Source of the DNA: Dolichospermum sp. DET69
Lineage (GTDB): Bacteria; Cyanobacteriota; Cyanobacteriia; Cyanobacteriales; Nostocaceae
Assembly (NCBI GenBank): GCA_017355425.1
Contig: CP070233.1
Coordinates: forward strand, 3,513,501-3,577,500
Length of the DNA: 64,000 nucleotides
Direction of reading: 5' to 3'
Part shown: piece after piece, positions 9,588 through 53,778 of the stretch
Layout: each line of letters starts with the position of its first letter
Numbering within the stretch: the first letter of the stretch is position 1
Position numbers and translations under genes: made by a program
Notes under the pieces: generated by a model
What the model saw: only the letters and a program-made list of their open reading frames with translations
The model's database searches: none
What the model was told of the DNA's origin: nothing

Positions 9588-9611
9588 CCCTCTCGAAGAG
9601 CGGGGGGGGTT

Positions 9612-9829: not shown

Positions 9830-10018
9830 GGGAGGGGGTTGGGGAATCAGTAAGTACCTAAAATCAACACCTAAAACTTTTAAAACATCCTCTTACTCAA
9901 TCAAGAACCGCTGTAAATTGAATTATCTATCTTTATTGATCCGATTAATCTTTAAATCTTGAAAATCCTGATTCTGACAACAATACCTTAACCAAATCAA
10001 AAAAATCATTGATTTCTA

Positions 10019-10096
10019 GGTTGGGTTGAGGGACTTGAAGCCATAACTCAACAAATAAATACGTCGGGTTTCTCTTCGCTCAACCCGACCTACACA
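10019..10096. repeat. Dispersed inverted repeat (GGTTGGGTTGAG type)
   Basis: GGTTGGGTTGAGGGAC at the left and CTCAACCCGACC at the right form an imperfect palindrome with the CGTCGGGTTTCTCTTCGCTC core typical of short repeats in cyanobacterial intergenic regions. It lies just past the chlD stop and could act as a transcript end. Confidence 0.5.
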
Positions 10097-10124
10097 AAAA
10101 TGGCTAAGGTATTGTGACAATAGA

Positions 10125-12149
10125 TTACTTTGATGATTTCATATCTGCTATAGCACCTCTAGTCATGGACGCGATCGCTTTATCAGTGGCTTTAGGTAAG
10201 TGATAATATTTACCTCCTGCTGTCTTAGCCAATTCCTTCGCAAAACCAGTGGATACAAACTTACTCTCTGTATCAATTACCAACAACTGCATCCCAGAGG
10301 CTCTAATTCTGCCCGCAATATCTAATAATTCGGCTTTGATATCTGGCTTTTCTCCTGGTTCGATGGGTTCACCTAAAGAACGAGCTAAAGGAATATTACC
10401 GCGACCATCAGTAATTGCCACGATTACAACCTGACCGATATCTCCACCCATTTGAGCATTTACCCCCACACGCACCGCTTGAGTTAAACCATGGGCGAGA
10501 GGTGAACCACCACCACAAGGTAATCTTTCTAAGCGATTTTTGGCTAAAGCAATGGAACGGGTAGGAGGTAATAAAACTTCTGCTTGTTCTCCTCGGAAGG
10601 GTATTAAAGATACTTGATCCCGATTTTGATAAGCTTCTGTTAAAAGCTGCATAACTGCACCTTTGGCAGATTGCATCCGATTTAGAGCCATTGAACCTGA
10701 AGCATCAACAACGAATACTATTAAAGCACCGGCTTTTCTCACCAACCGCTTAGAACGGATATCTCCCTGTTCAACAATTACTTTTTTATCAGGTTGTCGG
10801 GCGCGGCGTGATTTTTGATACGGGGCTGCGGCTCGAAGTGTGGCATCTACGGCTATTCTTCTCGCCTTACCTTTGGGAATCATCGGTTTGATATACCGTC
10901 CCCGGTCGTCTGAGAGGATAATACTGCGACTTCCAGATTTACCTTGACGTTGCGCCATTTGGGTAAAATAAAGCACTTCTGGGTCAAGAATTACCCCTTC
11001 TGGATCAAAAATAAATTCTTCAGGAATATCTGGGGGTTCTTGCTGTTCTTGTTCTTCTTCTTTCTCTTCTTTATCTTCTTCTTCTTGTTCTTCTTCCGAT
11101 TCCGACTCGTCTTGATTTTCTTGTGGTGGTGGGGGAGGTGGTGGTGGTTGGTCTGGTGGTGGGGTCTGCACTATAGTTGTTCTGGGAACTATCACCAATT
11201 CCACGGCTCGACGTAAATCTTCGGCGGTTACGGTACTGCGTCCTTCTAAGGCTGCTGCGGCTTTGGCAACTCGCACCGCAAATAGTTCTGCACGATGTCC
11301 TTCCACACCCCCGCGAATGGCTTCATTGACTAGGTAGGTAATTTGTTCTTGGGTAATAGTGACTTCTTTTAACCATTCCCGGGCCAGGATGATTTGGGTT
11401 TTGAGGGAGTCTATGTCTTCGCTGTATTGTTGGAGAAATTCTGAGGGAGACTTAGAATAGGCGATCGCTTGTTCAACTGCCTGTACTCTTTGATCTATAC
11501 CCAGAACTCCGTCTGCTGATAATGCGATCGCTATTCTATCAAGTAAATGTTCTCTTAACGCCCCTTCTTCTGGATTATAAGTGGCAATAAACAAAGGTTT
11601 GCAAGGATGTTGAAAACTTATTCCTTCCCGTTCAATTTGGTTACGTCCATCTGATAATACAGATAAAAGTTGGTTACTAATTTGGTCATCTAATAAGTTG
11701 ATTTCATCCACATACAGCACACCTCGGTTAGCTGTAGCGAGTAACCCCGGTTGAAAAATTGTATCACCTTGTTTAACCGACTGTTCCACATCCACAGAAC
11801 CTAAAAGCCGATCTTCTGTCACACCTAGAGGAATTTGCAAAAAAGGTGCAGGGATAATTTCCGTTTCTATCTCCTGTCTTTGTTCAGCTAAAAGTTTATC
11901 ATCCCATTCTTCTGGATGATCAGGGTCACAGTTGCTAACGGAATTTTTAACAACTTCAATTGGTGGTAATAAAGCGTGAATAGCACGCGCCATCACAGAT
12001 TTAGCCGTACCACGACGACCTGCAATTACCACACCCCCCAAAATGGGATCTACTGCTGTCAACAGCAAGGCTATCTTAATTGCTTCTTGACCAACTACAG
12101 CAGCCAACGGAAAAGCAGTCATTGTTGGGGTAAAAGTAGACGCAGGCAT
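10125..12149 (-). CDS. chlD: Magnesium chelatase subunit D
   Basis: ChlD is the AAA+ platform subunit that, with ChlI and ChlH, inserts Mg2+ into protoporphyrin IX in chlorophyll synthesis. The 674-residue protein shows the N-terminal AAA+ domain ([26 protein letters not shown]), a proline-rich stretch near 330-342, a long Glu/Asp-rich linker to about 375, and a C-terminal von Willebrand A domain with MIDAS motif DASGS near 486. In D subunits the AAA+ site is often degenerate; here a GxxGTAKS P-loop remains. AAGGAA lies just before the ATG. It is a single-gene unit, divergent from the Uma2 gene. Confidence 0.97.
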
Positions 12150-12246
12150 TGTTTCCTTAATAGTTATTATAATTTTAGCATAGCAATTTATGACGCATTT
12201 TAGTCAGCGATTAGAAGGCGATTAGAAATCACTTCTACACAAGCAA

Positions 12247-12293
12247 AGTCCACGCAGGTGGACTAAGGAAAATTCAACCCACGCAGGTGGGTT
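12247..12293. repeat. Twin small palindromes (CACGCAGGTG cores)
   Basis: Two adjacent hairpins, AGTCCACGCAGGTGGACT (12247-12264) and AACCCACGCAGGTGGGTT (12276-12293), share the loop CGCAGG but have co-varying arms. They are followed by TTTGTCTGTGTAGGCGCG and a CGAATTATATTCG palindrome. This is a dispersed cyanobacterial repeat in the chlD/Uma2 divergent promoter region. Confidence 0.6.
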
Positions 12294-12379
12294 TTGTCTG
12301 TGTAGGCGCGAATTATATTCGCCTTCTTCTTTTACAATATATAATTATGTAACGGTAATTTCTAAAAGGAGCAAGATAT

Positions 12380-12952
12380 ATGACTACAATTCAGGCTAAA
12401 CGCTTCACCCTAGAAGAATATCACAAGCTTACAGAAATAGGCTTTTTACATGAAGATGATCACGTTCAATTAATCAATGGAGAACTTATTGAAATGGTAT
12501 CAAAAGGGACAGCGCATGAAACTTGTTTAAGAAGCTTATTGCGGCAACTTCCTAAACTTATAGGGAATCAGGCAACTTTGCAATGTCAAGCCCCTATCAG
12601 CATACCACCAAAAAGCGAACCAGAACCAGATTTTGCGATTATCAAAAACCGTGATGATAATTATTTATCATCTCACCCACAAGGGACTGATGTGTTGTTA
12701 GTTATAGAAGTTGCAGATTCTTCCATAGATTATGATCAAAAGGTGAAAATACCTCTTTACGCAAAAGCGGGAATTGCTGATTATTGGATTTTTAATTTAT
12801 TAGATAATTACCTGGAATGTTACAGTGAACCATATCAAAATAAACAAAGTATATTTGGGTATGGAAGTAAGCGAATTATTTTACCAAATCAAGTTATATC
12901 TTTACCACATTTTTCTGATTTGCAACTTGATTTGAATAGACTATTTCCTTGA
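12380..12952 (+). CDS. Uma2 family endonuclease-like protein (DUF820)
   Basis: A 190-residue protein of the Uma2/DUF820 family, which is abundant in cyanobacteria and has a PD-(D/E)XK restriction-nuclease fold of unknown physiological role. Visible marks are FTLEEYHKL near the N-terminus, EPEPDFAIIK (the catalytic Asp), DVLLVIEVADSS (the Glu) with the downstream DYDQKVKIPLYAKAGIADYW. AGGAG precedes the ATG. It stands alone, followed by a perfect palindrome at 12958-12990. Confidence 0.9.
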   Translation: MTTIQAKRFTLEEYHKLTEIGFLHEDDHVQLINGELIEMVSKGTAHETCLRSLLRQLPKLIGNQATLQCQAPISIPPKSEPEPDFAIIKNRDDNYLSSHPQGTDVLLVIEVADSSIDYDQKVKIPLYAKAGIADYWIFNLLDNYLECYSEPYQNKQSIFGYGSKRIILPNQVISLPHFSDLQLDLNRLFP

Positions 12953-12957
12953 AATTT

Positions 12958-12990
12958 AGATCCCCGACTTCTTTAAGAAGTCGGGGATCT
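12958..12990. terminator. Perfect 16-bp-arm palindrome
   Basis: AGATCCCCGACTTCTT, one T, then its exact complement. It sits 6 bp past the Uma2 stop, where it could end transcription. The same repeat is at 63941-64000 with separated arms, and at 45081-45418, where another element has split it. Confidence 0.7.
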
Positions 12991-13033
12991 GGTATTCTGA
13001 TATGGTGTTTTTGAACTTTATATGTCATAAATT

Positions 13034-13654
13034 ATGAACCAGCGACTAACCCAAGAACAATTAAATCAAATAATTGCTGAAGTTCAAGGACTGCAATTAC
13101 GTCAAGAAGCAGAACTTGATCAACAGCAAGTTAAAGAGATTTTACAAGATTTGAATTTACCACCTGAATTATTAGATGAAGCATTGATTCAAGTTCGACG
13201 TAAACAAGCCTTAGAAGTTCAACAACGCCGTAACAAATTAATTACTTTTGGGGTAGTTGCGGCTGTGATTATAGGAATAGGATCAACAGTATTTTTTAAT
13301 CAGCAACAAGGTTCTTTACTAGCTAATGTTTCTGCACAACAGGATAAAATTACTCTAGAATCAAATAATGGGGACTTAAAAAATATCTCCCGTCAAACTA
13401 ATTCAGAACTTTTTTACCGTGTGACTTTGAAAAATGCACCTATAGGTAAAAAACTGGCTTTATCTTGTAATTGGATTGATCCAAGTGGTCAAATTGTCAA
13501 GCAGAATAATTATCAAACCCGTGAAGTTAAAACTTCTATTTGGGATACATTTTGCCGTTATACTATTAATGCTACAGCACCAGTGGGTAATTGGAAAGTC
13601 GAAATGTTTCTAGAAGGACGGAAAATTAGTGAAGAACCTTTTATAGTGCAATAG
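13034..13654 (+). CDS. Hypothetical membrane-anchored protein
   Basis: A 206-residue protein with a helical, Gln/Glu-rich N-terminal part (residues 1-65, QEQLNQIIAEVQGL type), one hydrophobic segment at about 70-90 (LITFGVVAAVIIGIGSTVFF), and a C-terminal part with the look of a small beta domain (KKLALSCNWIDPSGQIVKQ, WKVEMFLEG). The topology suggests a cytoplasmic N-terminus and an extracytoplasmic C-terminus. No family is assigned. It ends 2 bp before the next gene, so it probably shares an operon with the asparagine-synthetase-like and LysA-like genes. Confidence 0.75.
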   Translation: MNQRLTQEQLNQIIAEVQGLQLRQEAELDQQQVKEILQDLNLPPELLDEALIQVRRKQALEVQQRRNKLITFGVVAAVIIGIGSTVFFNQQQGSLLANVSAQQDKITLESNNGDLKNISRQTNSELFYRVTLKNAPIGKKLALSCNWIDPSGQIVKQNNYQTREVKTSIWDTFCRYTINATAPVGNWKVEMFLEGRKISEEPFIVQ

Positions 13655-13656
13655 TT

Positions 13657-15360
13657 ATGTTTCCCTATCATTTTATTGGCTATTGGGGTGATGAGAAAAA
13701 AGAGTTTTTCATGCAAAGGCACAGAGGCACAAAGAGAGAAGTTAAGGAAGAAAAATTTGTTTGGGATGTTGTTTATATTGGTTGTGAGTCTGTGCCGTCG
13801 CTCCCTGAAAATACGATTGCTGGTATTTCTGCTGCGGGGGTTTTTGATAATCTTGATGTTTGGGTAAAGTTAGAATCAAATAGGTTGATTTTGGGAAGAG
13901 AAGCTTTTGGAAGGGTTTCTTTATTTTGGACTCAGCAAAAAGGGGTGATTTGGTTTGCTTCACAATTACAATTACTTTTAGAGGTTATAGAAAAACCGGA
14001 AATTAGTATTTCTGGTTTATATGGTTATAGTTGTTTTTCTTATGTTCCCAATCCTCTCACTGCTGTTAATGAGGTGTTTTCTGTACCTGCGGGAACTGAG
14101 ATTATTTGGGAAAATGTTGATAATCCCCAATTTCGTAGTATTTATCAATGGTGTGAATCAAAGTCACAAATTCAAGATGAAAACACCGCAGTTTCTCAAT
14201 TACAAGTTTTACTAAAAAATGCTATTCGAACACAAATTGCTGATTTAAAAGATGAACCTGTAGGAGTGTTTCTTTCTGGGGGTTTAGATTCTTCTATCGT
14301 TGCGGCTTTGTTGGTAGAAGCTGGGGTGAAAGTTCGTGCTTATACTTTAGATTTCGGGAATGTGGGAATCCCTGAATATCCCTATGCGGAACAAGTTGCA
14401 CAGTTTTTGAATATTCCTTTGGTAAAAGTTGATGCTAGTCCAGGTAAGATTAAAAAGGCTCTTATTCCTACTGTCAAAGCCTTAGATTTACCTTTTGGTG
14501 ACGGAGTGACAGTTCCTTTATATCTCCTGAATCAAGTTGCTTCTGGGGAAACTCAGGTGATTTTTAATGGTGAAGGTGGTGATCAATTATTTGCTGGTTG
14601 GACTAATAAACCTTTGATTGCTGCGGGTATTTATCAATCTGAACACCCTAATCAAGAAGAAAGTTTTATTCAACAATATCTGCGGACTTTTCACCGTCTT
14701 TGGGGTTATGAATCAAGGGTATATCAGCCGAAAATATATGCTCATATTCAGGGTTTAAATGCTCAGGATTGGCTGTTAAATGCTCTTGATAGCAGTTTTT
14801 GTCCTTCGTTATTACATCGCCTTCGTCGTGCCAGTTTGATGTTAAAAGGAGCGCAAAATATTCATCCGCGTGCGACTGCGTTGGGATTTGCTCATGGGTT
14901 GGCTGTGCGATCGCCTTTTTGTGATTTACTTTTAGCAGAATGGACTTTTCAGCTATCGGGTGAACTCTGTCTACATGGTGCTTGTGAGAAGTATATTCTC
15001 AAACGGGCTGTAGAAAATTTGCTACCTTCAGAAATAGTTTGGCGACAAAAACGCGGTATGGGTGTTCCCTTAACCTCTTGGTGTTTAAATGATTATTGGC
15101 ATGATATCGGTAATTGGTTAAATCCTGGTATACTAAATGCGGATAACTGCTTTATTCCTGATCTTGCTGCACAAATTGTCACAGGTGAATTAGGGGGCGC
15201 AATTCAAGGCCGACGGATTGGTGAAAGTCTATGGTTATTGACAATGTGGCAACTTTGGCGTTATCATGTTTTTGGTTCTCAACTAGGTAAAAAGTCTTTA
15301 TATCATCCATTTATCATACCTCGATGGTTATGGCAAAAATACCAACAATTCCCAAGTTAG
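13657..15360 (+). CDS. Asparagine synthetase-like protein without the glutaminase Cys
   Basis: The 567-residue protein has the AsnB-type synthetase domain: PP-loop ATP motif VGVFLSGGLDSSIVAALL near 205-220, FNGEGGDQLFAGW near 305, and C-terminal KRAVENLLPSEIVWRQKRGMG. The N-terminal Ntn-hydrolase-like region lacks the nucleophilic Cys that must follow Met1, so glutamine hydrolysis is unlikely; it could use another amine or make an intramolecular amide, as beta-lactam-synthetase-type homologues do (inference). A repeat-derived stretch (MQRHRGTKREVKEEK, about residues 19-33) is inserted in frame. The 3' end overlaps the LysA-like gene by 37 bp. Confidence 0.85.
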   Translation: MFPYHFIGYWGDEKKEFFMQRHRGTKREVKEEKFVWDVVYIGCESVPSLPENTIAGISAAGVFDNLDVWVKLESNRLILGREAFGRVSLFWTQQKGVIWFASQLQLLLEVIEKPEISISGLYGYSCFSYVPNPLTAVNEVFSVPAGTEIIWENVDNPQFRSIYQWCESKSQIQDENTAVSQLQVLLKNAIRTQIADLKDEPVGVFLSGGLDSSIVAALLVEAGVKVRAYTLDFGNVGIPEYPYAEQVAQFLNIPLVKVDASPGKIKKALIPTVKALDLPFGDGVTVPLYLLNQVASGETQVIFNGEGGDQLFAGWTNKPLIAAGIYQSEHPNQEESFIQQYLRTFHRLWGYESRVYQPKIYAHIQGLNAQDWLLNALDSSFCPSLLHRLRRASLMLKGAQNIHPRATALGFAHGLAVRSPFCDLLLAEWTFQLSGELCLHGACEKYILKRAVENLLPSEIVWRQKRGMGVPLTSWCLNDYWHDIGNWLNPGILNADNCFIPDLAAQIVTGELGGAIQGRRIGESLWLLTMWQLWRYHVFGSQLGKKSLYHPFIIPRWLWQKYQQFPS

Positions 15361-28224: not shown

Positions 28225-29109
28225 TTACAATTTCTGCAATAATTCCTGAGTTAATTGCATAAATGCTTTAGAACCTGCTGTATTCGGACTTAGTAAGGAT
28301 ACAGGCATAAAACTATCAACAGCTTTAGCAACATTAACATCAACTGGTATTTGTGCTTTACAGATTTTATCTACTCCAAAATCTTCGATAACTCGGTGCA
28401 TTACCTGTTTATAATATCTACCATTTAGGAGATTTGCACTGGACATACTAAAGACAATTCCCAACATTTTAATATCTATGTTGGCTTCGTGTTCGTGACT
28501 TTCTTTTAATTGGGCAATGCGTCTTTCTAAAAGTTGAATTCCCACAACAGATAAGGGTTCTGGTTTAGCTGGGAGAATATAGAAATCACTTGTAGCTAAA
28601 GCACTGCGAGTTAATAGATTGTAACCGGGAGCGCAATCTAAAAGAATAAAATCATATTCATCTCGCACGGGTTTTAAAATATCTCTAATTAAAACTCTTT
28701 CAAAGCGATTCCAGATATTTTCAAAATCCTGTTCTCCCAATGCTACTGATTGATTATGCAGCATTTCCGAAACGACAAATTCATCATATAAGTCTATATC
28801 TCCCGGTAATAAATTTAATCCGGTCAGATTACAAATTTGAGGTTGAATGATATCCCCAATTGTAAATTTTGCTTCTGGTTCAGGGTTAATAATTTGATCT
28901 AGCAAATATCTAAATGTCTTTCGTTGCTTGCGACGTTTGGCAAAATCTACTGGTGACATTAAACTCAGTGTGGCACTAATTTGACTGTCTAAATCTAAAA
29001 CCAGGACTTTTTTTCCGTGATTTTTCGCCAAGCAAGTAGCTATATTGACGGTGATGGTAGTTTTACCGACTCCACCTTTCATGTTTGCGGTTGCAATTAC
29101 ATATCCCAT
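28225..29109 (-). CDS. ParA-family partition-type ATPase
   Basis: A 294-residue P-loop ATPase of the ParA/MinD group: deviant Walker A KGGVGKTTITVN (residues 11-22), LDLDSQ (A' motif, about 41-46), and DFILLDCAPGYNLLTR (Walker B, about 155). It resembles chromosome or plasmid partition ATPases, but no ParB gene or parS-like repeat is adjacent. It is separated by 327 bp of repeats from the nuclease-translocase gene on the same strand, so co-operation is possible but not shown. Confidence 0.88.
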   Translation of the reverse strand: MGYVIATANMKGGVGKTTITVNIATCLAKNHGKKVLVLDLDSQISATLSLMSPVDFAKRRKQRKTFRYLLDQIINPEPEAKFTIGDIIQPQICNLTGLNLLPGDIDLYDEFVVSEMLHNQSVALGEQDFENIWNRFERVLIRDILKPVRDEYDFILLDCAPGYNLLTRSALATSDFYILPAKPEPLSVVGIQLLERRIAQLKESHEHEANIDIKMLGIVFSMSSANLLNGRYYKQVMHRVIEDFGVDKICKAQIPVDVNVAKAVDSFMPVSLLSPNTAGSKAFMQLTQELLQKL

Positions 29110-29436
29110 TTTTAATTCCCCTACTGACGCTTTTCCATTGAGGTAGCGTTCATATTATCTAATAGATTTTCACTTTGGTTAATTTTAGTCTTTTGGGGGA
29201 TGTGGAAAAGTAGGATTTGTAATAGATACCATTTCTTTATGAGAATGGACTTAATTAGCAAATGTAGAGACGTTCTTAATTAGAGAACTCCACAAAAAAA
29301 ATAATCCAATCTTGTGGGATGGGCATCCTGCCCGTCCTTGTATTATTAACAAAGATGCCTGCACCACAAGAGAATTTGGGATATTTTTTGATTTGGAGGT
29401 CTCTTAGCAGATGTAGGGACGTTTCATGAAGCGTCT
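29110..29436. repeat. Palindrome-rich spacer
   Basis: It contains a GTAGAGACGTTC unit near 29265, a CTTGTGGGATGGGCATCC repeat near 29318, and the inverted repeat TGTAGGGACGTTTCATGAAG...CTCTACA (about 29413-29442), which runs into the 3' end of the next gene. The last one is a palindrome of the same family as 39142-39169. Confidence 0.65.
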
Positions 29437-32130
29437 CTACAGTAATGGGAGTTGAATATTTTGTGCTAATAAGCTCTGAAGACGTTGTAGTTGCGAACCA
29501 ACTTGGTAAACTAAATCGCCTTTCCCTATCAGGTAAGCTGCTACGGTTGATGTCCCACCTAAGATTATTTTTGAATCAGCTTCGCTTTTGGTGCTGAGTG
29601 CAACCCGTCCAGGTAAGTTAGAACGAATAATTGGGGTGACAATACTGGCTTCTGGACGTTGTGTGGAAATAATTAGATGAATTCCGGCGGCTCTTGCCAT
29701 TGCGCCTAGACGTTTGATACTTTGTTCCAATATGGTGCGAATTTCTTTTTCTGCCATAAAATCGGCATATTCATCAAATATACAGACTATTCGCGGCAAA
29801 GATGGAGAAGAACGTTGATTATAGGTAATTAAATCAGCACATTTAGCTTTTTCAAATTTTTGATAGCGAGATTCCATCTCTGCAACTAATTCTTGCATTA
29901 ATTCTACAGCGCGATCGCTATCTTTGACTACTGGTGAATATAACCACGACATTTGCTCAAACTCTGGAAATGTCACCCGCTTAGGATCAACTAAAGCAAT
30001 TTTCAAATGTTGGGGAGAATGACGGTAGAGTAAACTGAGCAGGAGCGATCGCAAAAATTCGCTTTTACCGCTTCCAGTTGTTCCCCCAACCAAAAAATGA
30101 CAAGTATTCGGATCTGATAAATCAGCCTCTAACAATTTACCATCAATACTCACGCCAATGGCAATTTTCACGGGTGCTGTTGGGGGTAAAAATTGCTTTT
30201 TAATATAATCTTCAAATTTGGCAATTTGTCTATCTGTACGGGGTAAATCAATACTCACATAACCAGCTTGGGGAGCAATTAAAGGCGGATATTCTAACCC
30301 CAATTGTACTTGTAAATCAGCGGATAATCGTAATAGAGAACTGACTTTAACACCCAGATTTGGTTTAAGTTTTACTCGAATAAATGCTGGACTTACAGCA
30401 GCACCTTGATACTCAACACCAATACCAAAAGATTGCAAAGTATTAACCAAAGCTTCTCCTATTTCATCAGCATTAATATTTGGTAAACTCTCCCCCCTTT
30501 CTAAGGGGGGTTGGGGGGGATCAGATTCCACATTTGTAACTAAAGATTCCCCTGTTTCATCAGCATTAATAGTTGACGTAGTTCTCAACAGATCACATAT
30601 ATCTATCATTTTCTCTATACATTGATGCAAAGAAACATTAGTATTAAAAAAAGTCTGACATTTTTGTTGTTGAGGGCAAATTTCACATAAATGAGGTTGA
30701 GTTGTAACTGGTGGTGGGTTAGGATTTGGAGATTCCCAACTCAACCATTGTTGCATCTGTAATAGTTTGTAAGGAATTAATTGATGAACTGTATTTTCTA
30801 ATTGTTCCCAAGAATATTTGTATTCTTTAAAATCAGGTAAAACACAATAAACAGCAGAATCAACAGGTGCTTTTTTCTTCTCCCATAACATATAACTATA
30901 GAGAGAAACTTGTGCTAATTGTGCTGCTGAATCTACAGGTTGATAGGTTTTAAACTCTATCATACAAAGGCGTTTGAGTTCAAAGTTAAAAACTAAACAA
31001 TCAAATTCACCTCTTACCAGTTGTTTTGTGCTATTAGGTAAATTAAAATAATGTTCTAAAATGCGTTCTTCATTAATAAAAGTATTTCTAATCACTGTTT
31101 CTGCACTGCAATAACGGCGATTAATAATTAATAATTCCGTCAATTGTTTAATAAGTCCTTGTATTCCCTGCCAAACTTGTAATAAAGCGGGTGCTTTACT
31201 AGGATCTTGACTAATAGTATTTTGTAAATAAGGGAAAAATTTAACTTGGTAGAATATTTGTTGAATTTCTGAGGCTATTTCATCTACATTTATTCTGGTT
31301 GCATCTGGGTTGAATAAAGATTTAATTTGTGGTTCAATAATCAGTAAGTTAATAAAATCATCTGCTAATTTATGAAAAGCATTACCAATTCCTGATACTA
31401 CATTTTTAGGGAAAAATATGGCTTTATCACCAAATTTATGGTTAAGGTAAAATAAACGAGGACATTCAAAAGCCAATCTCACTTTAGTCGGAGTTAAAGA
31501 AGAATTTTCTGATTGATGATTTACCATATTAAATATATTACTAATAGCATCAGGGTTAGATATTTGCAGTAAGCGACGATGAACAGCAGCGAGATATACT
31601 GTATCCATTGCTGCATAGTTTAGTTGTTTTTGAGAGAGAGGGCGTTGTCCCCAATCGCTTGTTCCTTCTTCAGCATCTACATGAGAAAAGTGACAGAGTT
31701 CAGTCGCTAAAGTTTTTAGTTTTAAGTTGGTAGTTTGTAAAACTTTACGGTTAATTTTTTGGGCTAATTTTAAAGTACAGGTAACATTTTGGGCTAAAGT
31801 TTTTCCCAGATATTTTAAATCAAAACCCGCACTATGAAATACTTTTTCAATTTGGGGATTAACCATAATTTGGTTAATAAAATATTCTGCTAAATCAGGT
31901 TTATCTAAAACATCAAAAAGGTAAGCATATTCACCTGTTAAGTCCGTAGGATTAGCCAATGCTTGAATTAGTGCTAATTTGGGATAGTGAGTATTCCAAT
32001 CAGCAATTTCTGTATCTAGCCATAAAACTTTATAAGTTCCTAGTTGAGATATTTGATTGTAGATTTCAGAAGATTTTGTCAGGTAGTGCATTGGCTGATA
32101 ATATCTTAAAAGATAAGTAGATTTAAGCAA
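29437..32130 (-). CDS. DEDDy exonuclease - PD-(D/E)XK nuclease - FtsK translocase fusion
   Basis: An 897-residue multidomain protein. Residues about 30-195: RNase D-like 3'-5' exonuclease (LDTE at 38-41, HSAGFDLKYLG, YAAMDTVYL). Residues about 215-490: RecB/Cas4-type nuclease (FECPRLFYL, GEFDCLVFN near 373, MIEFKTYQP near 393, and CEICPQQQKC near 480, which with the earlier Cys could bind an Fe-S cluster). Residues about 570-897: FtsK/HerA-type motor (GGTTGSGKSEFLRSLL near 685, VCIFDEYADF near 788, STQRPEASIV). The order is very unusual. The first codon is TTG overlapping the upstream stop; Met14 is an alternative start. A repeat lies in frame near residue 540. Confidence 0.85.
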   Translation of the reverse strand: MLKSTYLLRYYQPMHYLTKSSEIYNQISQLGTYKVLWLDTEIADWNTHYPKLALIQALANPTDLTGEYAYLFDVLDKPDLAEYFINQIMVNPQIEKVFHSAGFDLKYLGKTLAQNVTCTLKLAQKINRKVLQTTNLKLKTLATELCHFSHVDAEEGTSDWGQRPLSQKQLNYAAMDTVYLAAVHRRLLQISNPDAISNIFNMVNHQSENSSLTPTKVRLAFECPRLFYLNHKFGDKAIFFPKNVVSGIGNAFHKLADDFINLLIIEPQIKSLFNPDATRINVDEIASEIQQIFYQVKFFPYLQNTISQDPSKAPALLQVWQGIQGLIKQLTELLIINRRYCSAETVIRNTFINEERILEHYFNLPNSTKQLVRGEFDCLVFNFELKRLCMIEFKTYQPVDSAAQLAQVSLYSYMLWEKKKAPVDSAVYCVLPDFKEYKYSWEQLENTVHQLIPYKLLQMQQWLSWESPNPNPPPVTTQPHLCEICPQQQKCQTFFNTNVSLHQCIEKMIDICDLLRTTSTINADETGESLVTNVESDPPQPPLERGESLPNINADEIGEALVNTLQSFGIGVEYQGAAVSPAFIRVKLKPNLGVKVSSLLRLSADLQVQLGLEYPPLIAPQAGYVSIDLPRTDRQIAKFEDYIKKQFLPPTAPVKIAIGVSIDGKLLEADLSDPNTCHFLVGGTTGSGKSEFLRSLLLSLLYRHSPQHLKIALVDPKRVTFPEFEQMSWLYSPVVKDSDRAVELMQELVAEMESRYQKFEKAKCADLITYNQRSSPSLPRIVCIFDEYADFMAEKEIRTILEQSIKRLGAMARAAGIHLIISTQRPEASIVTPIIRSNLPGRVALSTKSEADSKIILGGTSTVAAYLIGKGDLVYQVGSQLQRLQSLLAQNIQLPLL
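30481..30526. repeat. Palindromic repeat inserted in frame
   Basis: Within the fusion gene, a CCCCCCTTTCTAAGGGGGG-type palindrome encodes DPPQPPLERGE. It is flanked by near-identical 33-bp copies encoding INADETGESLV and INADEIGEALV, the signature of an insertion with target duplication or a tandem copy. It lies in the linker before the FtsK domain. Confidence 0.75.
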
Positions 32131-34252
32131 CTAAACAAATTAATTGATCTGGTAATTTAGCTTTTGGGTTAATTAACTTCACTTTCTTTTCTTGACATAA
32201 TAGATCAATTAAATGTTGAATATCAGTTTCTTGAGTATCAGAAAACTGATTAGCAGCCTGTGAAATCAAAGTAGGTACTCCCATAAATTGCTGAGTTGTG
32301 ACAAGATTTAATAAGAAATCCTTAACGGGTCTTAAATCTTTTTTGCCATTTCTATTGGTATCTGGTGGTGTTTCTTGTTTATAAACAATTCCTAAATTCT
32401 GAAACAAGGTACATTTATACAAAATTTGGGATTCACGAATTAAAACTTCTAGTTTTTGTACACTAATAGATTTACCACTAATTACTAAGTCTTGAGATTT
32501 TGCAGAATTTACCAAACTTTGGTATGTTGCCAAGTAATGAATAGACTGTAAATTTGGTTTGATATGAACATGATTAGTATCTGTAAATATCTGTCTATAG
32601 ATTTGATTGCCAGCTAGGTTTGGCTTTCCTAAATCTCCACCACGAATTAAGTACATAGTTTGACATAGATTTTTTTGAATTGCTGTTTGACAAGCATTCA
32701 TTATATGAAAAAAACTATTCATATTTGCATCTTCTGTCCACACTACTCCTACTCTTTCTTGTTTGTGAGACTTTTGATAACTCAAGGAATAATTAGCATA
32801 CTTTCCGCTTACAAGTTTAGGCTTAATTTCTTGTATTTGTAAGGCAGATATAGCTTGTTGTAACATCTGAATTAGATCAGATGATGACAACAAAGATATT
32901 TTGGTAATTTTTTCCTGGTTTTTGTTATATTCTTTCTGCCATAGTAATTGAAATTCTGCTTGAGTTGTATCCTGATTACTTTTATCTGGATCTACTTGTG
33001 TTGGGGGAATAATACGTATAGTTTTAGGAGTCCCATTTTTATCTGGTATTAAAACATTTATGGGATTTATTGGAACTTCAACTATTGCTGGCTTTGGCTT
33101 TTCAGTTAATAGGGAAATTTTATATTTTTGATATTCATCACGACCTAGAATTAATGTATTTCTAGGCATGGTTTTACCACCAGGGTAATTTGTAGCTAAA
33201 ATTTGTTGATTTAGAGGAAAAATAGCAGATTTAGGTTTGGGAGTTGCTAGTTGATGTAATGGATTCAGTTGATAAGCCCAAAGTGCTTCTGCTTGTTCTA
33301 TATTAATACGTTTTAACTGAATTGTTTTATGTATTCCTGCTTTATCGGCTGGAAGAATCTTGTCAAAATGGCGTTTTAAAGTATCTGTAATAACACTGAT
33401 AATCACTAAAAAGTTTTTTAAACTATCCCCGTGAATAGTTGTGTTGACATTGAAAAAAGGTTGTATATCCAGAAAACCTTCTGGTAACTGGGGCATAGTA
33501 TCTAAATTGTCAAAACATAAAACTATTGGTTGGGTTTGTGTGGAAATTCTGCCAAAGTTAGCCAAAATATTTTTTGCAGCATCTTCTGTATCAATGCAGT
33601 TTTTTACTCTGATTTCTTTCATAGACTCTTCGCTTAGATCATCCCCGCGCAACCATTCGCAAGCTAAGTCATATAATTCTGGATTTGCGAGATCATGCAG
33701 CACTCCAAAAAAGATGTCAGGATTATAAATACCTGCTTTCTTATAAGTATCTTTGAGGTGTTTGATGAATTTTTGACGATTGCTTTGTAGTGCTTCCCAA
33801 AAATTATCATTAAATATTCGTTGTTTTATATTAACTTTACTAAATGCAGATAAACTTTTGAGCCATAACATTAACTGTGATTCTTTTTCACCTTCGGGAA
33901 CTTGAATTAAACTATCAACAGTATGCCGTAAAATATGCCGCCAAATATAGGTGCTATCAGCCCAGTTACAGAGAATATAGGCAAAAAAGGCTTTCGGGTT
34001 AAGAGTACGTTTGAGCCGACCTAGTAAATAACTTTTACCAGAACCAGAATCACCCGCTAACAAAACTGTCCGACTACGATGATCTTTACCTACTAAGTCA
34101 AGTAAACCTTCAATCTCTATTATTGTCTCTTGATGAATTGACTCAACCATTAGCGTTGAATCTTGTTCGTCAGCCCAAAAATTAGTAGGTTTTAAATTGA
34201 TTATGTCAAAAGGATTGACCTCACGTTTAATAATGTTGTTGATGTCTGTCAT
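32123..34252 (-). CDS. Large P-loop ATPase
   Basis: A 709-residue protein with an N-terminal AAA/STAND-like ATPase: VLLAGDSGSGKSYLLGRL near 60-77 (Walker A) and PIVLCFDNLDTMPQLPEGFL near 240 (Walker B). A charged linker follows. A C-terminal region of unknown fold contains RVGVVWTEDANMNSFFHIM near 500 and LATYQSLVNSAKSQDLVISG near 575. It ends 8 bp inside the translocase gene, so the two are translationally coupled. I cannot name the family. A partial second copy of its C-terminal motif lies at 35703-35828. Confidence 0.75.
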   Translation of the reverse strand: MTDINNIIKREVNPFDIINLKPTNFWADEQDSTLMVESIHQETIIEIEGLLDLVGKDHRSRTVLLAGDSGSGKSYLLGRLKRTLNPKAFFAYILCNWADSTYIWRHILRHTVDSLIQVPEGEKESQLMLWLKSLSAFSKVNIKQRIFNDNFWEALQSNRQKFIKHLKDTYKKAGIYNPDIFFGVLHDLANPELYDLACEWLRGDDLSEESMKEIRVKNCIDTEDAAKNILANFGRISTQTQPIVLCFDNLDTMPQLPEGFLDIQPFFNVNTTIHGDSLKNFLVIISVITDTLKRHFDKILPADKAGIHKTIQLKRINIEQAEALWAYQLNPLHQLATPKPKSAIFPLNQQILATNYPGGKTMPRNTLILGRDEYQKYKISLLTEKPKPAIVEVPINPINVLIPDKNGTPKTIRIIPPTQVDPDKSNQDTTQAEFQLLWQKEYNKNQEKITKISLLSSSDLIQMLQQAISALQIQEIKPKLVSGKYANYSLSYQKSHKQERVGVVWTEDANMNSFFHIMNACQTAIQKNLCQTMYLIRGGDLGKPNLAGNQIYRQIFTDTNHVHIKPNLQSIHYLATYQSLVNSAKSQDLVISGKSISVQKLEVLIRESQILYKCTLFQNLGIVYKQETPPDTNRNGKKDLRPVKDFLLNLVTTQQFMGVPTLISQAANQFSDTQETDIQHLIDLLCQEKKVKLINPKAKLPDQLICLVA

Positions 34253-34307
34253 AGCTATAGGTTAGTGAGAGGGCAAACGAATGAAAAAAGAAATAGTTGA
34301 AATCGTT

Positions 34308-35141
34308 TTAATTGACAGTGATAAAGAACAGTTGACCACCAATATTTTGAGGGATACCAGCATCAATTTGCTTTGGTGTATAAGCACTGACTTCTTGCAA
34401 GGAACTCAAATCAATTTTGTCAGTTTTCTGCAATCTATACAATGCCTGATCTAATTCATCCCGTGACATTGGTGGTTGTAATTTTTGCCGTAAATGAAAA
34501 ATAGGTAAATAATTCTCTGTACCCAATTCCTGATCTAATTTCTGAATAATTTTTAAAATTTCTTCATCACTTATATCTGACGGTTCACTTGCAGCTAGTG
34601 AAGCAGAAACTTGTTCTGACTTAACCCGCAAATTTTTTCGTAAAAAGTGCAGATAATTACCCAGCATATCTAAACTGACAGCAGGGTTAACTCCCTTGTT
34701 GGGAATATATTCATCCCGCAAAAACTCAATTCCTCTTTCAGTCAACCAAACCTCAGCTTTAATTCTTTGAATTTTGATTTCTGTCGCAATTAAACCGCGT
34801 TCACTTAAGCTTTTTAGTATCTCTCCTCGTTCAGCAGCTTTTAGAAAAGTTATTTCACTGGGGGCGATTTTAGCAGTAGCTTTACTGAGCTTATCCAACA
34901 CCTTACGCTCTTTGTCAGTGATGGGTAAATCGGCTGATTCGAGTTTCAAGAGTGCTTGAGCAGGGGGTAAAATTTTAACTGTGGCAATCTCCCGTGAATA
35001 GTCTACCAGTTCACGTTCCCCCAAATCTCGACAAATTTTGTCCCTACCTTTGAAGGAACTAAAAGTGCTGGAACTCAATCCAGTACGATAGTCGGCACAT
35101 CCCAAAAGCTTCAAAAGGAACTTTAACTCATTCGTTTCCAT
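34308..35141 (-). CDS. Winged-helix-like protein of the ATPase/translocase operon
   Basis: A 277-residue protein with alternating short helices and KAEVWLTERGIEFLRDEY near 130, which resembles a winged-helix wing region. The C-terminal part (YLPIFHLRQKLQPPMSRDEL, LYRLQKTDKIDLSSL, GGQLFFITV) looks like a second winged-helix unit, a type seen in several bacterial ATPase systems (pattern judgement). It ends 56 bp before the ATPase start and is the first gene of the three-gene cluster. A DNA-sensing or regulatory role is an inference. Confidence 0.65.
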   Translation of the reverse strand: METNELKFLLKLLGCADYRTGLSSSTFSSFKGRDKICRDLGERELVDYSREIATVKILPPAQALLKLESADLPITDKERKVLDKLSKATAKIAPSEITFLKAAERGEILKSLSERGLIATEIKIQRIKAEVWLTERGIEFLRDEYIPNKGVNPAVSLDMLGNYLHFLRKNLRVKSEQVSASLAASEPSDISDEEILKIIQKLDQELGTENYLPIFHLRQKLQPPMSRDELDQALYRLQKTDKIDLSSLQEVSAYTPKQIDAGIPQNIGGQLFFITVN

Positions 35142-39257: not shown

Positions 39258-39390
39258 TTTTAAACTTGCTCCTCACACACAAATATAATTTATCACTATT
39301 TCAGTTAATTGGCAAGTACCTTAGACAACTATTTTGAAAATTGTTTTTAACAGGGAACAGGGAACAGGTGACAGTGGGGCAAGAATTATT

Positions 39391-39643
39391 ACCAATGACC
39401 AATGACCAATGACCAATGACCAATGACCAATGACCAATGACCAATGACCAATGACCAATGACCAATGACCAATGACCAATGACCAATGACCAATGACCAA
39501 TGACCAATGACCAATGACCAATGACCAATGACCAATGACCAATGACCAATGACCAATGACCAATGACCAATGACCAATGACCAATGACCAATGACCAATG
39601 ACCAATGACCAATGACCAATGACTAATGACTAATGACTAATGT
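39391..39643. repeat. Heptamer array CCAATGA, about 33 copies
   Basis: Units of ACCAATG repeated about 33 times with almost no variation, then three degenerate GACTAATG units. The last CTA is the complement of the purH stop codon (TAG), so the array ends exactly at the gene. All three minus-strand frames stay open through it (VIGHWSL repeated), which is an artefact of the 7-bp unit. Confidence 0.97.
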
Positions 39644-41284: not shown

Positions 41285-42460
41285 CTATGAGGACATTGAT
41301 TGAGCTTTGGGGGCGTGTGTCCCACGCGCCTTTATATTTATAGCCGCATTTAGATCCCGACACAAGCTGACCTTACAATTAGGGCAATTGTGCGTTCTTT
41401 CTGATAGCGGCTTTTTGACTTTGTGACTGCAATTAGAACATTCTTGGCTCGTACCGTTTGGATTTACAGCTATCACTTTCAAACCAGCATTTTCGGCTTT
41501 GTTTGAAAGTATAGTAATGAACTGTCCCCATCCAGCATCGTTAATACTTTTTGCCAATTTTGTTTTAGCAAGTCCTTTTATATTCAATTTTTCAACAACT
41601 ACTACATCGTACTTTTTGAGCAGATTATTAGCAGTTTTAAAGTGAAAATCTTTTCTAGTATCACCAACTTTTTTGTGCTGCTTACTTAGTTTTTTAATAG
41701 CTTTTTTACGGCGATTAGAACCTTTCTTTCTACGAGAAACACGACGTTGAGCAGATTTTAATTTACGTTCAGCTTTACGCAAAAACTTAGGGGCTGCAAT
41801 TCTTTCATCGTCTGAGGTGACAATAAAATCAATTAACCCGACATCAATACCAACAGTATTATTAGCATTAAAATCAGGTTTAATCGTGGGAACTATCTTG
41901 TCGTCAAGGCTTAGAGTCACATAATACCCGTCTGCTTTTTTGGTGACAGACACAGTTTTAATATCAAAACCATCGGGTATTTGCCGATGAACAATTACTT
42001 TTATATCTCCTATTTTTGACAGTGTAATTCTGTTATTAATAAAGTGATGTTGTTTAAATTGGGGAAAAGTAAATGTTTTGTATTGCCCTGCACTTTTCAA
42101 TCTAGGTCTACCCGACTTTTTCCCATTAGCATCACATTTTAACCATCGATCAAAAGCTAATTCAACCTTTTTTGGAACTTCCTGTAGCACCTGAGAATGA
42201 ATTTCTTTGTACCAAGGACGGTCTTCTTTAAGTTGAATTAATGATGCTTGCTGACTAAAGCGGTTAGGCTTATCTTTTAGTTCTGGTAAATAACAAACAA
42301 GAATGGAACATCTATCAATAGGAGAACGGTTTTGTTCGTACCAGTGGAAGCGTTGAGCCAGTTGATAATTATACTGATGCCGCAGCATATCTAGTGTTTT
42401 ATCAATTTTTTCTGCTTGCTCTTTTGTTGGTTTTAATCGGTACTGATAAGATGTTCTCAT
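41285..42460 (-). CDS. tnpB: TnpB, RNA-guided nuclease of an IS200/IS605-type element
   Basis: A 391-residue TnpB from the Met of MRTSYQYRLKPTKEQAEKI, preceded by AAAGGAAA; a longer frame upstream lacks such a site. RuvC residues: GIDVGLIDFIVTS (Asp, about 203), VVVEKLNIKGLAK (Glu, about 286), CRDLNAAINIKARG (Asp, about 371). The zinc finger is CSNC...CPNC. All catalytic residues are present. No tnpA is near, so it is a solo tnpB element. The guide RNA would be at the 3' end. Confidence 0.95.
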   Translation of the reverse strand: MRTSYQYRLKPTKEQAEKIDKTLDMLRHQYNYQLAQRFHWYEQNRSPIDRCSILVCYLPELKDKPNRFSQQASLIQLKEDRPWYKEIHSQVLQEVPKKVELAFDRWLKCDANGKKSGRPRLKSAGQYKTFTFPQFKQHHFINNRITLSKIGDIKVIVHRQIPDGFDIKTVSVTKKADGYYVTLSLDDKIVPTIKPDFNANNTVGIDVGLIDFIVTSDDERIAAPKFLRKAERKLKSAQRRVSRRKKGSNRRKKAIKKLSKQHKKVGDTRKDFHFKTANNLLKKYDVVVVEKLNIKGLAKTKLAKSINDAGWGQFITILSNKAENAGLKVIAVNPNGTSQECSNCSHKVKKPLSERTHNCPNCKVSLCRDLNAAINIKARGTHAPKAQSMSS

Positions 42461-42522
42461 TTTTTTGTTTCCTTTCGACCTGTTTTTATGATAGCATAAA
42501 GGATAGCCATTAACCACCCTTT

Positions 42523-51177: not shown

Positions 51178-52038
51178 TTATAATTCTGTGTGGGATTTTA
51201 GCCACTGTTCCAAATCGTTAATATCTCCAAAGTCTAATAATGCTTCTCCCAGGTCTTCTAACTGTGCTATTGTTAATCCGTTGATGGTTTCTATATAGCG
51301 CACTGGCAATTCATATTTGCCACCACTGCTTAATTTTCCAAATCTCTTAGATAATATTCGCAGCAGTAAGTTTTTCTCACCTTCTTGTTGACCTTCTTCT
51401 TTTGCCTCTTGATAAACTCTTGTTTGCTTGATATCACTAAGTAAAAACATCGCTTCAACCTCCTGACGGCTTAATTGTGAAAATTTCGACACCAAAACAG
51501 TTTCCAATAACTCTATAATACCTTTTTTTTCTCTATCATTGCTAATCTCTGTCTTGGTTCTTGCCATAAGATTTTGTACTAATTGTGGTGCTTGGTTTTC
51601 TTTACTCACAATTAATTCAATTAACCCCATACCGATTGAACCTGTTGGAATTTCATCTAAATAAATTCTTTGAATTCGACCACTATTAACTAATTCTTGT
51701 TGATAATTAGTTAATACTTCCACATCCAAACTACGTTTAGCAAATAAAGCCACTGCTTGCCAATCTTGTTGCGGTTTGTATTGATTGAGATAAATGTTAA
51801 TTTCTGTGATTAATTCCCAATAAAATTCTGGTTTGTTTTGGAATTGAACTTCCACAAAATAGATAGGTTTTTCGGCACTATCGGCCATAAAAATGCCATC
51901 AAATCGAAAGGCTTTTTCTTTAACTTCCACAGAAGTGAACTGATAACCTTCAGCATTTTCTATGGGTTGTCCCAGGAGTTCAAATAATAAACTGTGGAAG
52001 GTGAGAAAGATTTGGTAAAATATGGTACCTGTGTGCAT
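51178..52038 (-). CDS. Rpn/DUF2887-type PD-(D/E)XK protein, copy 3
   Basis: A 286-residue protein of the Rpn/DUF2887 group with a PD-(D/E)XK-like core: FRFDGIFMADSAEKPIYFVE, then VQFQNKPEFYWELITEINIY. Rpn proteins promote recombination in some bacteria, and their nuclease role here is an inference. It differs from the two neighbours at a few positions, mainly around EGQQEGEKNLLLR and near the C-terminus (SHTEL). Stop and start of neighbours are 3 bp apart. Confidence 0.88.
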   Translation of the reverse strand: MHTGTIFYQIFLTFHSLLFELLGQPIENAEGYQFTSVEVKEKAFRFDGIFMADSAEKPIYFVEVQFQNKPEFYWELITEINIYLNQYKPQQDWQAVALFAKRSLDVEVLTNYQQELVNSGRIQRIYLDEIPTGSIGMGLIELIVSKENQAPQLVQNLMARTKTEISNDREKKGIIELLETVLVSKFSQLSRQEVEAMFLLSDIKQTRVYQEAKEEGQQEGEKNLLLRILSKRFGKLSSGGKYELPVRYIETINGLTIAQLEDLGEALLDFGDINDLEQWLKSHTEL

Positions 52039-52041
52039 TAT

Positions 52042-52902
52042 TTATGATTTTATGTGAGATTTTAACCATTGTTCTAAGTCGTTAATATCTCCAAAGTCTA
52101 ATAATGCTTCTCCCAGGTCTTCTAACTGTGCTATTGTCAATCTGTTGATGCTTTCAATGTAGCGGACTGGCAATTCATATTTGCCACCACTGCTTAATTT
52201 TCCAAATCTCTTAGATAATTGACGCAGCAGTAAGTTTGTTGCTTCTGCTTGTCTACCTTCTTCTTTTGCTTCTTGATAAACTCTTGTTTGCTTGATATCA
52301 CTAAGTAAAAACATCGCTTCAACCTCCTGACGGCTTAATTGTGAAAACTTCGACACCAAAACAGTTTCCAATAACTCTATAATACCTTTTTTTTCTCTAT
52401 CATTGCTAATCTCTGTCTTGGTTCTTGCCATAAGATTTTGTACTAATTGTGGTGCTTGATTTTCTTTACTCACAATTAATTCAATTAACCCCATACCGAT
52501 TGAACCTGCTGGAATTTCATCTAAATAAATTCTTTGAATTCGACCACTATTAACTAATTCTTGTTGATAATTAGTTAATACTTCCACATCCAAACTACGT
52601 TTAGCAAATAAAGCCACTGCTTGCCAATCTTGTTGCGGTTTGTATTGATTGAGATAGATGTTAATTTCTGTGATTAATTCCCAATAAAATTCTGGTTTGT
52701 TTTGAAATTGGACTTCTACAAAATAGATGGGTTTTTCGGCACTATCGGCCATAAAAATGCCATCAAATCGAAAGGCTTTTTCTTTAACTTCCACAGAAGT
52801 GAACTGATAACCTTCAGCATTTTCTATGGGTTGTCCCAGGAGTTCAAATAATAAACTGTGGAAGGTGAGAAAGATTTGATAAAATATGGTATCTGTGTGC
52901 AT
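52042..52902 (-). CDS. Rpn/DUF2887-type PD-(D/E)XK protein, copy 2
   Basis: A 286-residue protein almost identical to copies 1 and 3. Local differences are LDEIPAGSIG instead of LDEIPTGSIG, and EGRQAEATNLLLRQLSK. The near-identity over the entire length indicates a recent tandem duplication or gene conversion. The same start (MHTDTIFYQIF) and 3-bp spacing suggest that all three are read as one message. Confidence 0.88.
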   Translation of the reverse strand: MHTDTIFYQIFLTFHSLLFELLGQPIENAEGYQFTSVEVKEKAFRFDGIFMADSAEKPIYFVEVQFQNKPEFYWELITEINIYLNQYKPQQDWQAVALFAKRSLDVEVLTNYQQELVNSGRIQRIYLDEIPAGSIGMGLIELIVSKENQAPQLVQNLMARTKTEISNDREKKGIIELLETVLVSKFSQLSRQEVEAMFLLSDIKQTRVYQEAKEEGRQAEATNLLLRQLSKRFGKLSSGGKYELPVRYIESINRLTIAQLEDLGEALLDFGDINDLEQWLKSHIKS

Positions 52903-52905
52903 TAT

Positions 52906-53778
52906 TTATGATTTTATGTGAGATTTTAACCATTGTTCTAAGTCGTTAATATCTCCAAAGTCTAATAATGCTTCTCCCAGGTCTTCTAACTGTGCTATTG
53001 TCAATCTGTTGATGCTTTCAATGTAACGCACTGGCAATTCATATTTGCCACTACTACTTAATTTTCCAAATCGTTTCGATAATATTCGCAGCAGTAAGTT
53101 TGTTGCTTCTGCTTGTCTGCCTTCCTGTTGACCTTCTTCTTTTGCTTCTTGATAAACTCTTGTTTGCTTGATATCACTAAGTAAAAACATCGCTTCAACC
53201 TCCTGACGGCTTAATTGTGAAAACTTCGACACCAAAACAGTTTCCAATAACTCTATAATACCTTTTTTTTCTCTATCATTGCTAATCTCTGTCTTGGTTC
53301 TTGCCATAAGATTTTGTACTAATTGTGGTGCTTGATTTTCTTTACTCACAATTAATTCAATTAACCCCATACCGATTGAACCTGTTGGAATTTCATCTAA
53401 ATAAATTCTTTGAATTCGACCACTATTAACTAATTCTTGTTGATAATTAGTTAATACTTCCACATCCAAACTACGTTTAGCAAATAAAGCCACTGCTTGC
53501 CAATCTTGTTGCGGTTTGTATTGATTGAGATAAATGTTAATTTCTGTGATTAATTCCCAATAAAATTCTGGTTTGTTTTGAAATTGGACTTCCACAAAAT
53601 AGATAGGTTTTTCGGCACTATCTGGCATGAATATGCCATCAAATCGAAAGGCTTTTTCTTTAACTTCCACAGAAGTAAACTGATAACCTTCAGCATTTTC
53701 TATGGGTTGTCCCAGGAGTTCAAATAATAAACTGTGGAAGGTGAGAAAGATTTGGTAAAATATGGTATCTGTGTGCAT
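52906..53778 (-). CDS. Rpn/DUF2887-type PD-(D/E)XK protein, copy 1
   Basis: A 290-residue protein, the first of the three in transcription order. It has a 4-residue longer linker (EGQQEGRQAEATNLLL) that looks like the sum of the two shorter variants, and MPDSAEKP in place of MADSAEKP. Its start overlaps the radical SAM gene stop by 1 bp (ATGA-like junction), so it is translationally coupled. Confidence 0.88.
   Translation of the reverse strand: MHTDTIFYQIFLTFHSLLFELLGQPIENAEGYQFTSVEVKEKAFRFDGIFMPDSAEKPIYFVEVQFQNKPEFYWELITEINIYLNQYKPQQDWQAVALFAKRSLDVEVLTNYQQELVNSGRIQRIYLDEIPTGSIGMGLIELIVSKENQAPQLVQNLMARTKTEISNDREKKGIIELLETVLVSKFSQLSRQEVEAMFLLSDIKQTRVYQEAKEEGQQEGRQAEATNLLLRILSKRFGKLSSSGKYELPVRYIESINRLTIAQLEDLGEALLDFGDINDLEQWLKSHIKS

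Follow-up and report, generated by a model that had tools for sequence, protein, structure and literature searches.

A candidate anti-invader module of the Orc/CDC6-coupled HerA/FtsK capture class in Dolichospermum and other cyanobacteria

A three-gene module predicted to degrade invading DNA

We analyzed a stretch of 64,000 nucleotides (nt) from Dolichospermum sp. DET69 (assembly GCA_017355425.1, contig CP070233.1, positions 3,513,501 to 3,577,500; hereafter the window), whose genome comprises 6.04 Mb in 2 contigs. Three genes of the window, transcribed from the minus strand in the order WH, ATP, FUS, encode a predicted winged-helix protein (WH), a Cdc6/Orc1-like AAA+ ATPase (ATP), and an effector that fuses a DEDD 3'-5' exonuclease, a PD-(D/E)XK nuclease, and an FtsK motor (FUS). 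On balance, we think it probable that this WH-ATP-FUS module is an anti-invader, DNA-degrading system belonging to the Orc/CDC6-coupled HerA/FtsK capture systems, a class with the same parts that has itself been predicted to act against invaders (Rakesh, Aravind, Krishnan 2024, PMC10853773; here and below, statements on this source refer to its available sections). That published prediction is one of the reasons for our reading.

In the mechanism we propose, ATP, helped by the multi-winged-helix WH, would recognize and load on invading DNA, and loaded ATP would recruit FUS by binding between the proteins. The FtsK motor of FUS would pump duplex DNA, its iron-sulfur (Fe-S)-type PD-(D/E)XK nuclease would cut the pumped DNA, and its DEDD domain would trim the 3' ends.

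FUS joins two nucleases to an FtsK motor

The FUS gene (29437..32130, minus strand; probable start at 32091) corresponds to an open reading frame of 897 residues. Pfam searches identified DNA_pol_A_exo1 at residues 15-188 (E 3.9e-27), PDDEXK_1 at residues 212-492 (1.5e-9), FtsK_alpha at residues 555-630 (1.4e-7), and FtsK_SpoIIIE at residues 645-826 (2.6e-39). Combining these matches with conservation counts for the nuclease and tree groupings for the exonuclease and motor, we delimit the DEDD exonuclease domain to residues 14-195 (31546..32091), the nuclease domain to residues 206-500 (30631..31515), the FtsK-alpha domain to about residues 553-645 (30196..30474), and the motor to about residues 646-892 (29455..30195), all on the minus strand. 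An initial annotation of the window, made from the sequence alone, had placed three activities in this one protein, with nuclease folds in its N-terminal and middle parts, and the profile searches agree on both counts. Its description of the motor as FtsK/HerA holds for FtsK and fails for HerA, as the HerA-type DUF87 family scored 0.0037, under its cut-off.

Residue conservation was counted in a 31-row alignment (A3). Cysteines C223 (31462-31464), C482, C485, and C491 (30658-30687; all minus strand) are invariant in 31/31 rows, and the nuclease residues H253, D377, E392, and K394 are each present in 30/31, a pattern we take to be that of the Fe-S RecB/AddB/Cas4 nucleases. In the exonuclease, D39, E41, and Y172 are found in 28/31 rows and D176 in 29/31, with gaps in the remainder; this is presumably the residue pattern of a DEDDy exonuclease. 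The Walker A lysine K689 and the Walker B pair D786/E787 occur in 30 rows, with one gap. Judged by these conserved residues, the motor is intact. Among PADLOC models, the motor matches the restriction protein SspH (9.7e-64) and mad8 (1.8e-27), which supports an anti-invader role; Cas4 models gave weak scores on FUS (0.0013 and 0.0058).

The consensus of the homologues starts at FUS residue 14, where there is an ATG near 32091. The 8-nt overlap with the ATPase stop that had initially been noted needs an upstream TTG start and is therefore probably not real, the likely ATP-FUS intergenic gap being about 31 nt. The linkage of the neighboring genes, which had been noted alongside the overlap, stands.

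ATP and WH resemble an origin-recognition-type ATPase and a multi-winged-helix protein

ATP (32123..34252, minus strand) is a 709-residue protein that matches AAA_16 in Pfam at 8.2e-9. The AlphaFold2 (AF2) model has a mean predicted local distance difference test (pLDDT) score of 86.4 and a predicted template modeling (pTM) score of 0.85, and is laid out as an AAA+ domain, a helical lid, an alpha/beta block (about residues 457-585), and a winged-helix-like end (residues 641-707). The top Protein Data Bank (PDB) fold match returned by Foldseek was Cdc6/Orc1 (2qby_B, E 1.1e-4, template modeling (TM) score by query length 0.21). Cdc6/ORC chains are intermixed with p97/Cdc48/Rix7-type AAA+ proteins among the matches listed at E <= 0.001 (14). 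Since the TM score by query length is about 0.2 and the AAA+ matches are mixed, the Cdc6/Orc1 assignment applies at the level of the domain. By sequence, matches to the PDB are weak (best E 0.21, Cdc6 at 0.33), and a fold search of a viral library returned giant-virus AAA ATPases alone at E <= 0.001, which indicates an AAA+ fold and nothing further. In a 42-row alignment (A1), the Walker A residue K73 is conserved in 42/42 rows and the Walker B residue D248 in 41/42. No Pfam match reached the cut-off in residues 400-709; in the corresponding place, between the AAA+ core and the C-terminal winged helix-turn-helix (wHTH), the published class has an inactive restriction endonuclease (REase) domain (PMC10853773).

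WH (34308..35141, minus strand) has 277 residues. Its AF2 model (mean pLDDT 83.5, pTM 0.51) predicts, from secondary structure, three winged-helix-like units at about residues 3-65, 76-145, and 190-277, and so backs the winged-helix-like character first ascribed to this upstream protein. None of its 396 Foldseek PDB matches reaches E 0.001, and several of those listed are winged-helix regulators. HTH_45 is detected at E <= 0.01 in 8/36 WH relatives.

The gene order recurs across cyanobacterial genera

ATP was searched for in 386 cyanobacterial genomes with a match defined at E <= 1e-10; as a lower bound, at least 47 genomes carry a match, every one of them within the taxonomic order to which the window belongs. 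The genome searches for ATP and FUS scored the first two candidates per genome and may miss second copies, an example being an ATP beside FUS in genome G002 that is visible on the locus map. A contig search for relatives, taking the best 80 of 252 stretches, contributed 79 loci, every title being cyanobacterial. Gene order was counted in 20-kb loci together with these 79 contig loci, identical ATPs being collapsed, to give 122 distinct ATPs at 108 loci. WH lies immediately upstream of ATP in 105/122 cases and FUS immediately downstream in 89/122; both are adjacent in 87/122. The order thus recurs across many cyanobacterial genera, as the conservation of gene order proposed at the outset would have it, which excludes chance. 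This order, together with the FUS domains and their conserved residues, favors the anti-invader reading.

The module also varies. A second ATP follows the first in 10 of the 122 cases, and WH-ATP-ATP tandems are seen at L077, L087, L167, L170, L171, L172, L177, L179, and other loci, several of them without FUS in place. Ninety FUS-like open reading frames (ORFs) match all four segments. The exonuclease is absent without traces at L085, L094, L167, and the plasmid locus L184, and is fragmented at L093; exonuclease-nuclease forms lacking the motor occur at L150, L151, and L155, while L152 keeps a 75-residue motor remnant and FUS of L154 is truncated by the contig end. The nuclease is the part retained in every form without exonuclease or motor.

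At L092 (genome G129; 5924-13872), a 1121-residue FUS carries an insert between exonuclease and nuclease that is judged kinase-like from its sequence motifs and because it clusters with the L071 protein, a kinase according to Pfam. The fused nuclease of L092 has H253 replaced by S and K394 by E and has lost the GEFD stretch, while its four cysteines are kept. A separate 287-residue nuclease with intact H, D, DxK, and four cysteines is encoded just before WH, two genes before FUS. This pairing of a degenerate fused nuclease with an intact separate one speaks for an anti-invader function; the split is consistent with nuclease activity being required and with the cysteines having a structural role. 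The protein of L069/L071 was considered as a FUS and rejected: it is a protein kinase that had been grouped through the L092 kinase by single linkage and separates under stricter clustering.

The AAA+ domain appears to be exchanged against a steadier effector

Compared with the window, the 79 loci show mean identities of 82% for the motor, 75% for FtsK-alpha, 69% for the exonuclease, and 67% for the nuclease, and 65% for AAA+, 64% for WH, and 59% for the C-terminal part of ATP. Motor identity exceeds that of the ATP C-terminal part in 79/79 loci, and at nine loci the motor is at least 80% identical yet the AAA+ domain at most 56%. Clustering of the AAA+ domain (residues 1-384; 33101..34252, minus strand) at 82 loci revealed a class of nine whose members share 78% identity on average, against about 48% with the 58 members of the main class. 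On the motor tree the nine are scattered, requiring 7 changes, of which at least 5 are forced by well-supported branches; 23/500 shuffles were as low. A single clade of the nine is rejected on the motor tree by the approximately unbiased (AU) test (p 7e-54), and also on the nuclease (1e-42), ATP C-terminal (5e-38), and WH (3e-4) trees. Since the class was spotted by its disagreement with the motor, these p-values are post hoc and the AU p overstates the surprise; the weight rests instead on the scatter and on the mosaic profile of identity along ATP, which is split by class to about residue 375-450 and ordinary beyond.

The nine are less scattered on the ATP C-terminal and WH trees (5 changes, 0/500 shuffles as low), which indicates that the AAA+ domain is accompanied by some partner parts when it moves. 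A second AAA+ class, with four members, is a single clade in the tree of ATP C-terminal parts, which suggests exchange of the whole gene, for example at the same-genus locus L097.

Based on these identity, class, and tree comparisons, the AAA+ domain appears to have been swapped between otherwise similar operons or strains, and we infer that it is this part on which pressure to vary acts, which is what a recognition module would be expected to show. The scatter of this class (9/82 loci) on the motor tree and the mosaic profile argue for the anti-invader reading. A more specific picture is one of modular innate immunity, in which the AAA+ domain would be a target-specifying cassette traded like restriction specificity subunits and combined with a pump akin to those of the very cyanophages and plasmids that the system would intercept and with an exonuclease drawn from the host's RNase D family; we offer it tentatively, as conceivable rather than probable.

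The motor has relatives in mobile elements and the exonuclease in cyanobacterial RNase D-like proteins

A tree of 34 motors, built with one broad outgroup set and few cellular FtsKs and carrying long-branch warnings, placed the 18 module motors in one group (96/91). This group joins FtsKs of cyanobacterial plasmids and of Cylindrospermopsis cyanophages (98/93). Four SspH-type motors, a Dnd-linked FtsK, and three FtsKs labeled cellular fall outside it; one of the last three comes from a faecal phage record. The best phage protein matches to the motor come from the same two cyanophages (41.9% and 40.5%). FtsK-alpha-bearing motors have been attributed to cellular FtsK (PMC10853773); the tree suggests that this cyanobacterial branch has mobile-element kin. 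That the nearest motors outside the module lie in cyanophages and cyanobacterial plasmids is a further point for an anti-invader system.

The exonuclease tree, built from 41 domains of which 20 are from FUS, groups 19/20 module exonucleases together beside standalone cyanobacterial RNase D-like proteins (86/78) and places the L154 row elsewhere, weakly. The bootstrap had not settled, and one origin was recovered in 24% of bootstrap trees. A single fusion event is possible.

The module is old at a chromosomal site, often lost, and present on a plasmid

A ParA-type ATPase (28225..29109, minus strand) lies 327 nt downstream of FUS. At E <= 1e-60, ParA is matched in 97/386 genomes, including 41/42 of the window's family (G051 being without), whereas ATP is matched in 27/42, and the remaining 15 genomes all keep ParA. 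ParA, initially read as a possible member of the system, is therefore rejected as a component. Many family members have the module between glycosyltransferase-like genes and ParA, and an isoleucyl-tRNA-synthetase-like gene often comes next (gene names by eye). At 5/10 loci from genomes without the full module (L202, L203, L204, L205, and L210), pieces of FUS remain at the ParA site; L210 additionally holds full-length ATP and WH, and L205 pieces of both. These remnants beside ParA indicate that, within the family, the module has long occupied this site and has often been lost. Such patchy retention and decay favor an anti-invader role, as does the copy of the full module on plasmid pPSE7367.01, which PLSDB types as conjugative. 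Elsewhere, too, the module occupies other places.

RecBCD/AddAB and FtsK are comparable host machines that act on broken ends and dimers. The module could be a host DNA-repair or segregation machine in which a Cdc6-like loader delivers a nuclease-bearing FtsK pump to broken ends, dimers, or stalled forks, and its mostly fixed site beside a chromosomal ParA in the family, the strongly conserved motor, the RecB/AddB-like nuclease with Fe-S cysteines, and the ParB-like genes found with a large ParA in 21/108 loci would suit such a machine. However, 15/42 same-family genomes have no ATP match and FUS has decayed in several, ParA persists without the module, a plasmid carries the module, and AAA+ domains are swapped. 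We consider this explanation unlikely.

Less likely again is a maintenance or competition module derived from a plasmid or other element, now chromosomal and acting between plasmids rather than against phages. The plasmid kin of the motor, the full module on pPSE7367.01, and the ParA/ParB-like neighbors fit this idea, but ATP was found on 1/72,556 plasmid records only and the fetched loci are mostly chromosomal-looking. We continue with the anti-invader system as the preferred reading. A phage or viral origin of ATP was rejected on the ground that no relative was found in the viral contigs searched; FUS had a single match there (27%, motor part alone).

The large ParA ATPase (about 450-580 residues) and a ParB_N-like protein form a convergent pair near the module, as at L103:5745-7858. 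The N-terminus of the large ParA weakly matches HSDR_N (1.4e-4, under the cut-off), and the ParB_N-like protein (9e-6, just under the cut-off) has a Rho_N-like end. At L099, L100, and L103 the pair comes after ATP without WH and FUS, and a distant ParA is in the equivalent position at the module-less sites L206, L207, and L209. Elsewhere in the window are a low-complexity tandem repeat translating as MVIGHWSL-like units (39301-39612), an ORF resembling by eye the transposon-associated protein TnpB/OrfB (41285-42517), and three tandem paralogous ORFs of 286-290 residues on the minus strand (51178-53778).

No strict link between the module and phosphorothioation

The window's own genome carries dndC, dndD, and DGQHR/DndB-like genes about 217 kb from the module. 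This locus (L237, G000:C1:3288001-3306000) contains dndC, dndD, two DGQHR-domain genes, and a second DndD-like ATPase, with an IS200-type transposase gene adjoining dndC. The module might accordingly be the restriction arm of the host's Dnd phosphorothioation module, the more so as dndC is over the cut-off in 45/47 genomes with an ATP match and the FUS motor resembles SspH. Against this, dndC is near-universal in the order regardless (92/104 sampled genomes), G051 and G157 have an ATP match without dndC, and 4/5 further genomes bearing the module or part of it, whose completeness is not given, have no dndC match either. The four loci concerned carry a full WH-ATP-FUS module (L143), WH-ATP (L176 and L178), and WH-ATP-ATP (L170). 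The module thus has no strict tie to phosphorothioation, and no modification gene forms part of it.

Comparison of WH with SspG-like and of ATP with SspF-like proteins by hhalign gave probabilities of 0.1% and 6%, so homology was not detected with these small profiles of 3 and 2 sequences, respectively. ATP relatives touch an SspF model in 3/42 cases and a DndF model in 4/42 (E <= 0.1, best 3.2e-5), and other AAA models likewise. The dndC-less genomes weaken, without closing, the case for phosphorothioate-linked restriction, which we regard as very improbable. An anti-invader system of the capture class is still the reading we favor.

Considerations against an anti-invader role, and its significance

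Several observations weigh against this role. Many Nostocales carry the module at one and the same chromosomal position; a defense cassette that moves about would not usually be so fixed. Matches to defense models among 134 neighbor genes at 20 loci, counted with no control set, are scattered, no family among those listed (25 of 64) having more than 2 genes. The window ATP matches no PADLOC model, and the viral contigs searched hold no relative of it. The effector, being best conserved (motor mean 82%), would also suit a housekeeping machine.

If the reading is correct, bloom-forming and nitrogen-fixing cyanobacteria own a DNA-pumping nuclease system directed against phages and plasmids, whose proteins standard annotation calls 'DNA translocase FtsK', 'P-loop NTPase fold protein', and 'hypothetical protein'. 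The swapped ATPase domains would then be a natural set in which to study target choice by capture systems, a point that the published prediction, in its available sections, leaves open (PMC10853773).

Comparison with known systems

DndFGH/SspFGH (DptFGH) systems resemble the module in comprising three proteins that end in a nuclease-FtsK protein with a related motor. They differ in that FUS has 897 residues against about 1800, a large N-terminal part being missing in FUS, and the DndH/SspH and FUS motors, while related in sequence, lie on separate tree branches. Three cyanobacterial loci of the SspH/DptH type (L194, L195, and L197) have MAD7-like second genes, and L197 also has a DndA/IscS-type gene. 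MADS shares an FtsK-type motor with the module through mad8, but WH-ATP-FUS was not seen to include a methyltransferase or any other MADS gene; mad6-type matches occur in 2/134 neighbor genes. The RecB/AddB/Cas4 Fe-S nucleases share with FUS a PD-(D/E)XK core flanked by one cysteine on its N-terminal side and three on its C-terminal side, whereas the FUS nuclease is fused to a DEDD exonuclease and an FtsK motor. BREX-related capture (BRC) systems likewise combine an Orc/Cdc6 ATPase with HerA/FtsK but, in the available sections of their description, also include PglZ, DUF6079, STAND, and others, none of which is part of WH-ATP-FUS (PMC12839542).

The closest likeness is to the Orc/CDC6-coupled HerA/FtsK capture class, which contains an Orc/CDC6 ATPase, an inactive and an active REase, HerA/FtsK, and wHTH domains, with a separate protein of 2-4 wHTHs, a 3'-5' exonuclease fused to the motor, and an FtsK-alpha subset as options (PMC10853773). 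The module has in common with it the Orc/CDC6-type AAA+ domain (AAA_16 and 2qby_B matches), a predicted active REase-type nuclease (PDDEXK_1; catalytic residues 30/31), and the motor with FtsK-alpha; the fused exonuclease is matched by DNA_pol_A_exo1, and the separate wHTH gene by the three-unit WH, as predicted by its model and weak fold matches. WH-ATP-FUS looks like a local member of this already predicted class, so the arrangement is not the unrecorded one that it was first thought to be. We found no other paper on it in the full-text literature, preprints and most subscription journals being outside that search. In the available main text of PMC10853773 cyanobacteria are not mentioned, and exchange of the AAA+ domain is absent from its sections 20, 22, and 26. 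Relative to the published class, the new features are this apparent exchange, the suggested mobile-element kinship of the motor and the kinship of the exonuclease with cyanobacterial RNase D-like proteins, the degenerate and separate intact nuclease pair of L092, and the occurrence of the module without detected dndC.

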